A stretch of DNA of 64,000 bases from Methanomicrobia archaeon DTU008 (GTDB lineage Archaea > Thermoplasmatota > Thermoplasmata > Methanomassiliicoccales > Methanomassiliicoccaceae), in assembly GCA_001512965.1 (NCBI GenBank), contig LFRW01000035.1, positions 72,249 to 136,248 of the forward strand. Reading direction: 5' to 3'. Each line of letters begins with the position of its first letter. Position 1 is the first letter of the stretch. The position numbers were made by a program, and so were the translations under genes. Below, piece after piece: positions 27,139-29,434 of the stretch. Below the pieces are notes generated by a model. That model saw only the letters and a program-made list of their open reading frames with translations. It was not told where the DNA came from and searched no databases.

Positions 27139-28389
27139 ATGATTCAGCGTCCCCGTGGTACCAGGGACTTCGGGCCGGAAGAGATGGAGAAGAGACGCTG
27201 CCTCGAGGCGATCATGCGCCGGGAGGCCGCCGTGTTCGGTTTTCGTGAGATAGCCACACCCATCTTCGAATATACTGAATTGTTCACGATCAGATCTGGG
27301 CCCAACATTATCGAGGAGATCTATGCCTTCCAGGACAAGGGAGGCAGGGAGATCGCTCTCAGGCCCGAGCTTACCGCTCCGGCCATGCGCTTCTACGTCA
27401 ATGAACTGAGCAATAGCGCCAAGCCTCTGAAGATGTTCTATTTCGGGCAATGCTTCCGTTACGAGCGACCTCAATCTGGAAGGTTCAGGGAGTTCTTCCA
27501 GTTCGGGGCGGAGCTGATCAGTAACCCAGGTCCTGAATCGGATGCGGAAGTGATCGCCCTGGCCGCATCCATCATGCGCCGGATCGGCTTGAAGAACTAC
27601 AACATACGGGTGGGCCACATAGGGGTACTGCGTAACATGCTCGCCGAGGCCGGCGTCGACTCCGAGGTCGCTCCTCTTATCTTGCAGAAGCTTGACAAGA
27701 AGGAGTACGACGAGGCCCGCCAGCGAATGCGCGATGCTGACATGGAAGAGGAGCAGATCGAGAGAGTGGTCGACATAACTAACACGGTCGGCCCCATCGA
27801 TGTCCTGGACAAGATCGAAGGAGACGCCCGCGACCATCTTCTGGGGATTTTCAAGATCCTCGAGGCGTATGGTGTGACGGATATAGAGGTCGATCTCGGC
27901 GTGGTCCGAGGATTGGACTACTACACGGGCATGGTGTTTGAGATCGACGCACCTGTGCTGGGCGCCGAGAAGCAGATCTGTGGGGGAGGTTCTTACTCCC
28001 TTACCGAGATGTTCGGAGGCGAGAAGACATTCTCCACCGGTTTCGGGATAGGATTCGACCGGACATTACTGGCGCTTGAGAAGGAAGGTTTCGAAGGCCC
28101 GGCTCATAGCATGGATGTGTATGTCCTTCCCGTTGGTGACGCCTGCAGGCAGGAAGCTCACCGCATAGCGGCCGAACTGCGACTTGCTGGGGTTCGTACC
28201 GATATAGACCTCATGGGTAGAAGCCTCGCCAAGAGCATGAAGTACGCCAATGCGATCAACGCTCAGCGCGTCGTTATCGTCGGTGAGAAGGAGTTGGCCC
28301 AGGGAGCGGTCACGGTAAGAGATATGAATGCCGGTGAACAGAGATTGGTTAAACGGGAGGAACTGCTCGCCAAGCTTGGCCATTATTGA
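27139..28389 (+). CDS. hisS: histidyl-tRNA synthetase
   Basis: RPRGTRDFGPEEM, LRPELTAPAMRFY, GLDYYTGMVFEI, GGGSYSLTEMFGG. Confidence 0.95.
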   Translation: MIQRPRGTRDFGPEEMEKRRCLEAIMRREAAVFGFREIATPIFEYTELFTIRSGPNIIEEIYAFQDKGGREIALRPELTAPAMRFYVNELSNSAKPLKMFYFGQCFRYERPQSGRFREFFQFGAELISNPGPESDAEVIALAASIMRRIGLKNYNIRVGHIGVLRNMLAEAGVDSEVAPLILQKLDKKEYDEARQRMRDADMEEEQIERVVDITNTVGPIDVLDKIEGDARDHLLGIFKILEAYGVTDIEVDLGVVRGLDYYTGMVFEIDAPVLGAEKQICGGGSYSLTEMFGGEKTFSTGFGIGFDRTLLALEKEGFEGPAHSMDVYVLPVGDACRQEAHRIAAELRLAGVRTDIDLMGRSLAKSMKYANAINAQRVVIVGEKELAQGAVTVRDMNAGEQRLVKREELLAKLGHY

Positions 28390-28390
28390 T

Positions 28391-28473
28391 AAGAAATGCC
28401 TGAGGCCGGGTTCTTGGTGGGGATTCGGAGGAAAACTACTAAGGAGGAGAGTTGAGCACCAACCTCAGGCACT
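28391..28473 (-). ncRNA. candidate small structured RNA, unknown family
   Basis: 9-bp closing stem TGCCTGAGG/CCTCAGGCA plus coaxial TTGGTG/CACCAA; TTTATATA box centred about 27 nt upstream of the stem base; CU-rich loop with two CCTCC motifs; no ORF. Confidence 0.6.
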
Positions 28474-28495
28474 AGTTATCCCTATTATGCCCTTC

Positions 28496-28503
28496 TATAT
28501 AAA
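28496..28503 (-). promoter_or_regulatory. archaeal TATA box for candidate ncRNA
   Basis: Minus strand reads AAACTTTATATAGAAGGG (BRE-like AAAC plus TTTATATA). Confidence 0.6.
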
Positions 28504-28634
28504 GTTTAGGCCTGATACTACATATCGTCCGACAGCCCTTTACCCGCCTGGTCCATAGGCCAGTTTGCTCCACGATGCTGGAAACCATGCTATGGAAGGT
28601 TTCATTCTCGGTCTGGCGACGATGTGGGAAGCCA

Positions 28635-29069
28635 TCATGGGTTAGGCTTGCCCCTTGGCATGAGGTCGCGCATTATGTCCTGTTCCTTGTTCAAGAGGGC
28701 ATCGGCACGCGCCACCATCGGATGGCCCCTGCGGACGTTGGAGAACGTCACCTTGTTGAACTCACGAGAGAGCTTTCTTATCTCTTCGAGGTAGGGCTGC
28801 AGGTTGGCCGCCCGGCAGGCGTATTGGCCGTTGACCTGGCGCACCATGAGCTCGGAATCGCTTATAACTTCGACCTCGTCCGCACCCATGTCCATCGCTT
28901 CCTTCAGCGCGGCGATCGCCCCTTGATACTCTGCCACGTTGTTCGTAGTGCGCCCAATGTAGCGCGCATATTCCTTGACGACCTCGCCGTCCCTGGTCAC
29001 CACGATGGCGAACGCCGCCGGCCCAGGGTTCCCCCTGGCGCCGCCGTCGGTGTATATGGTCACCTTCAT
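28635..29069 (-). CDS. rnhA: ribonuclease HI
   Basis: [45 protein letters not shown]. Confidence 0.92.
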
Positions 29070-29434
29070 TCGCTCACCGAAGGACCTGGTGCATGGAGCG
29101 TCTTGACCTTGCGGTTCCTTTCATCGACCAGAACGATGTTGGGGACGATGGGACGATCGGTTATCTCGAAGGCCATGATGATGATGCGGTCGCCCGGCTT
29201 TACAAGATGGGCCGCGGCTCCATTGACGCATATTACTCCGGAGCCTGGTTCCCCCTCTACGGTATACGTCTCGAAGCGCGCACCGTTGTCCACGTCGGAG
29301 ATCAGCACCTTCTCCCCGGGCCAGATGTCTGCCTCGTCCAAGAGCTCCTTGTCTATGGTAATGCTCCCTACATAATCAAGGTCTGCCTGGGTCACCACCG
29401 CGCGGTGGATCTTGCCCCTCAGGAGGACACGCAT
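29066..29434 (-). CDS. panD: aspartate 1-decarboxylase (pyruvoyl type)
   Basis: [44 protein letters not shown] self-cleavage site; [19 protein letters not shown]. Confidence 0.9.

Follow-up and report, generated by a model that had tools for sequence, protein, structure and literature searches.

A predicted hairpin RNA gene family with an anti-Shine-Dalgarno-like loop in Methanomassiliicoccales and related archaea

Results

Between hisS and rnhA in the window, the 64,000-nucleotide stretch of DNA from Methanomicrobia archaeon DTU008 analysed here, lies an element whose status as an independent small RNA gene, in a family not catalogued before, is strongly supported by promoter spacing, compensatory base changes, synteny and the lack of an Rfam match (Table 1). 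The initial annotation had likewise called it a small RNA gene of no recognised family, and these lines of evidence bear this out. On re-reading the sequence, the TATA element, the stem bases (TGCCTGAGG/CCTCAGGCA), the two CCUCC motifs and the U-rich tail were all found where they had been placed, while the U-rich 3' end is not universal among relatives. Searches against Rfam 15 returned only tRNAs in the window at the gathering threshold and only chance-level matches at the element at permissive thresholds. No match suggesting a viral or plasmid origin of the element was found, and the open-access literature held no paper that we could find on small RNAs of Methanomassiliicoccales.

Table 1 Features of the predicted RNA gene and its neighbours (positions in the window)
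Feature	Position	Strand	Basis or remark
Predicted RNA body, hairpin of ~79 nt	28395..28473	-	Conserved in relatives; stem covariation
TATA promoter element AAACTTTATATA of the RNA gene	28496..28507	-	Read directly
5' arm of 15-bp stem, AGUGCCUGAGGUUGG	28459..28473	-	Pairing and covariation
3' arm of 15-bp stem, CCGGCCUCAGGCAUU	28395..28409	-	Pairing and covariation
Loop motif UCCUCCU, near-invariant; its CCUCC matches the 16S anti-SD	28442..28448	-	
First CCUCC of loop	28447-28443	-	
Second CCUCC of loop	28427..28431	-	Trait of hisS-site copies of family f1 (family of the window's genome)
Second conserved loop motif, AAUCCCCACC	28416..28425	-	Alignment of 84 sequences
U-rich 3' end UUUCUU (TTTCTT), possible terminator	28391..28396	-	Read directly
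hisS, histidyl-tRNA synthetase, convergent neighbour	27139..28389	+	TIGR00442, 404.6 bits, over cut-off; synteny
rnhA, RNase HI-like gene, upstream neighbour	28635..29069	-	Pfam RVT_3 and RNase_H over cut-off; synteny
panD, aspartate 1-decarboxylase	29066..29434	-	TIGR00223 over cut-off

The element is widely conserved. Of the 15 genomes in its family, 14 gave a blastn match, with 77-85% identity outside its own genome, and when the GTDB genome collection was scanned with an exact pattern, ten matches came up, all in Methanomassiliicoccus, Methanomassiliicoccales or unplaced Euryarchaeota/Thermoplasmatota metagenome-assembled genomes. A first covariance model (R1) recovered homologues throughout the order Methanomassiliicoccales, often two copies per genome, and a second (R2) extended the family to f8, f13 and f24, families of other orders within the same class, which we take to be Thermoplasmata (E ~1e-9 to 1e-17). 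A third model (R3), searched against 390 genomes of the phylum, added nothing credible: the phylum match G679 (E 0.004) was taken as chance, as were weak matches in tRNA or apparently unrelated sequence (L126-L129, L137).

The stem of the RNA is an uninterrupted helix of 15 bp in which 28473-28459 pairs with 28409-28395, leaving a loop of ~49 nt. This corrects the structure proposed initially, in which 9 bp were followed by an 8-nt bulge, a CACCAA/TTGGTG helix and a 37-nt loop; across the aligned cells of 15 relatives, the bulged inner helix forms pairs in 63%, a proportion not above that of shuffled controls, whereas the continuous stem reaches 99%. In the 15-sequence alignment, which was made with MAFFT and not fitted to the stem model, the continuous stem is 99.1% paired and 7 of its 15 pairs have changed on both sides. 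In an alignment of 84 sequences it is 95.3% paired with compensatory changes in 14 of 15 pairs, values reached by none of 500 shuffles and falling to 28-49% paired in slid controls; both this alignment and one of 50 sequences, on which covariation was also counted, were fitted to the stem model, so that their pair counts lean towards that stem. The fold is also more stable than shuffled sequences (z -2.9; 2 of 200 shuffles). The initial annotation had proposed looking for compensatory changes in related genomes, and had put its candidate at risk should both these and a conserved promoter-to-stem spacing be lacking; compensatory changes were found, and the joint absence did not occur.

Promoter spacing points to a predictable 5' end. 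The best TATA-like match falls 26-36 nt before the first stem base in 26 of 27 hisS-site copies and 41 of 57 copies at a second site, directly upstream of the CCA-adding enzyme gene cca (9 of 84 in shuffles), and nine further cca-site copies have such a match at 25 nt. In most copies the centre of the TATA element stands ~26-28 nt from the first stem base, and in leaderless-looking cca genes it typically stands 27-28 nt from the start codon. With 27-28 nt as the commonest spacing from TATA to start, transcription of the RNA probably begins at or near the first stem base, ~28473, which fits the start near 28472-28473 predicted by the initial annotation. With cca start codons picked by an N-terminal motif, a TATA-like element was also found 24-34 nt before the start codon in 34 of 43 cca loci, as against 9 of 43 in shuffles. 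Since the RNA and cca each have a TATA-like element of their own, the RNA at the cca site is probably not a cca leader. We infer a discrete transcript of ~80 nt from its own TATA promoter; an independent promoter together with a conserved non-coding structure, both seen here, are among the marks of a trans-encoded regulatory sRNA.

The two sites differ in distribution. The window copy belongs to the hisS/rnhA/panD site, which was detected in Methanomassiliicoccales alone; the RNA and hisS converge there, and there is no sense gene downstream of the RNA. At the other site the RNA immediately precedes cca (archaeal CCA-adding enzyme, TIGR03671), in the same orientation, in 63 of 63 loci tested, with a median distance of 57 nt from the end of the RNA model to the cca start codon. 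The window's genome has both sites, its second copy being at G000:C9:23843-23930. Outside Methanomassiliicoccales essentially all copies are at the cca site, one truncated locus (L113) having ended before cca would be visible, and on this distribution the family probably began at the cca site, with the window's hisS/rnhA copy arising later by duplication. Most sampled genera of family f2 of Methanomassiliicoccales keep cca and show no RNA before it, while genus g25 of that family keeps a divergent copy; in the former genera (loci L217-L246) the RNA appears to have been lost and a TATA-like element near -28 of cca retained.

The surroundings of the cca site were also inspected. The RNA-cca pair is preceded in many loci by a gene (L045:519-1331 and orthologues) for a protein with a metallo-beta-lactamase fold and weak similarity to RNase Z (60.6 bits, below cut-off), by which the RNA may sit between two genes for tRNA 3'-end maturation. 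In f1 loci (L056:1916-3087 and others) the gene divergent from RNA and cca encodes a methanol corrinoid protein, which resembles MtaC without reaching the equivalog cut-off, and an MtaB-like gene comes next. Many cca-site copies of families f3 and f6 (L040-L052) carry a C-rich tail (AACCCCCC or similar) straight after the stem, sometimes ending in a T-run; the tail might act as a terminator or provide a third C-rich seed.

The loop, pyrimidine-rich and 49 nt long in the window copy (40-50 nt across the family), has the consensus UCCUCCUAAG. CCUCC occurs in 82 of 84 relatives and UCCUCCU in 79, and conservation per base over the 84 sequences is 96-99% for UCCUCCU, 99-100% for the four C columns of AAUCCCCACC (its U, 93%) and 82-95% for CUCAAC. 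Near-invariance covers ~30 loop positions and extends past CCUCC. CCUCC is mostly unpaired (mean unpaired probability 0.87); an inner hairpin presenting it was seen in some copies (e.g., L015 and L053) and is not general. The motif had been described as identical to the 16S anti-SD core, rightly so, as the 16S rRNA of the window's genome ends in ...GGAUCACCUCCU, which includes CCUCCU. The initial annotation had further drawn attention to two CCUCC motifs: both are present in the window copy, but the second is nearly confined to hisS-site copies of f1. Only 14 of 84 sequences have two, 13 of these being f1 hisS-site copies, and by group the second motif occurs in 13 of 14 f1 hisS-site copies, none of 13 other hisS-site copies and 1 of 57 cca-site copies.

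Potential targets of the loop were sought in two ways. A set of 803 genes, picked with no regard to SD sequences, showed a GGAGG peak at -15 to -11 upstream of the first ATG, where ~6% of them carry the motif. A duplex-energy screen of the loop against 913 start regions (~0.98 Mb, 913 ORF starts, with some overlap between stretches) gave no enrichment over shuffled loops, a control made by mononucleotide shuffling, in which composition dominates. A search of 61 genomes for a long antisense target (18-nt loop complement, at most 2 mismatches) found almost nothing except the RNA genes themselves, other matches lying in G025:C104, G135:C96 and G023.

At G000:C34:63386-63519 (L206) the same genome has a third RNA type, whose long stem (AAGAG..GGGAAGG/CCUUCCC..CUCUU) closes a loop with the conserved motif UCUCCUCCUGA. 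This RNA type also has a TATA-like element, and DNA matches to it occur in 17 of 61 relatives. Other loci of this type are L083, L086-L088 and L203-L213. Its homology to the window RNA is uncertain.

Discussion

The reading we tentatively favour, with somewhat less than even confidence, is that the RNA is a trans-acting translational regulator. A hairpin of ~80 nt would be transcribed from its own TATA promoter, and its long stem would hold a pyrimidine-rich loop of 40-50 nt with UCCUCCU and AUCCCC; the CCUCC seed would block translation of a minority of mRNAs by pairing with their GGAGG ribosome-binding sites, with other conserved parts of the loop or an Lsm-type protein assisting the pairing. 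The presence in the same genome of the third RNA type with UCUCCUCCUGA favours this masking of ribosome-binding sites, as do two Lsm genes. That the loop might sequester SD sequences or act as a decoy for them, as the initial annotation suggested, is a plausible inference: CCUCC is near-invariant and accessible, and GGAGG precedes a small share of genes, but the loop has no excess complementarity over shuffled loops and the CCCC is equally invariant. The strong conservation of CCCC and CUCAAC is not explained by SD pairing alone, and conservation past CCUCC is suggestive of additional pairing or a partner protein.

The lack of excess duplex energy and of a long target, with conservation beyond CCUCC, makes a protein-bound RNA a serious rival, though on balance a somewhat unlikely one. 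The RNA would then be a structural or decoy molecule whose whole loop is the binding site of an Lsm protein, a ribosomal or initiation factor or another RNA-binding protein, with SD pairing minor or absent. The two Lsm genes are consistent with this as well, as is the extent of the near-invariant loop; against it, the best conserved block is the accessible anti-SD core, and the protein partner is a hypothetical one. A decidedly unlikely reading is an ancient RNA that modulates translation initiation globally: UCCUCCU, mimicking the 16S 3' end, would be presented together with the invariant AUCCCC to an initiation complex or a dedicated protein. Its several copies and the third RNA type, which shares the motif, would tune translation of the SD-led minority of mRNAs relative to leaderless ones, with a possible link to tRNA CCA maturation through its conserved position at cca. 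We see a slim chance that the RNA is instead tied to tRNA 3'-end maturation, as a sensor or a ligand of the CCA-adding enzyme or of unfinished tRNAs. This would account for its constant place before cca, other orders included, and for the RNase Z-like metallo-hydrolase upstream in many loci; yet cca has its own TATA-like element, the window copy stands away from cca, most sampled f2 genomes have cca with no RNA before it, and the element has no tRNA match.

Two further explanations fare worse. The position upstream of cca, at the median distance given above, might suggest a cis-acting leader or riboswitch of cca, of which the hisS-site copy would be a decayed duplicate, but we consider this very improbable: the separate promoter element of cca speaks, at the level of sequence, against co-transcription, and hisS-site copies lack a downstream sense gene and are conserved like the others. 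Hardly credible at all is the idea that the hisS-rnhA interval holds nothing but a transcription terminator or a repeat. The element does adjoin the 3' end of hisS, and a stem with a U-rich end resembles a terminator, but the loop, useless to a terminator, is the most conserved part, the promoter is kept at a fixed spacing, and the cca homologue stands at a different kind of site.

Y RNAs have an end-to-end stem and a pyrimidine-rich loop. The archaeal RNA shares both features, but no Ro60/TROVE protein was found in any of 21 genomes searched (0/21) and there was no Rfam match, and we rejected a Y RNA assignment. Precedents for the proposed regulator exist in bacteria and archaea. The alpha-r14 or 'cuckoo' sRNAs of Alphaproteobacteria (e.g., NfeR1) expose an anti-SD motif in unpaired loops while their stems diverge, and block ribosome-binding sites (PMC10746234, PMC3927594). 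The archaeal RNA likewise has an anti-SD motif in an unpaired loop, but whereas the bacterial sRNAs have three or more hairpins with CCUCCUCCC, it has one long conserved hairpin with a 40-50-nt loop bearing UCCUCCU and AUCCCC, and its loop consensus lacks CCUCCUCCC; it is thus not a member of that group. In Methanosarcina mazei, sRNA154 has two stem-loops with an anti-RBS sequence in loop 2, and sRNA41 masks RBSs in polycistronic mRNAs (PMC5867862). These are archaeal intergenic sRNAs and precedents for RBS masking, from which the present family, in another class and with a fixed site beside cca, is set apart on the published descriptions.

The above analyses point to a real, previously uncatalogued RNA family that may regulate translation. 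To our knowledge, few archaeal small RNAs have a known mechanism, and most of these are confined to close relatives. The present family spans several orders and occupies two syntenic sites; its stem covaries cleanly, its 5' end can be predicted, and the letters of the anti-SD core are near-invariant in its loop. These traits make it a testable entry point to translation regulation in archaea whose genes mostly lack a full SD, in a lineage of methanogens that includes gut members.
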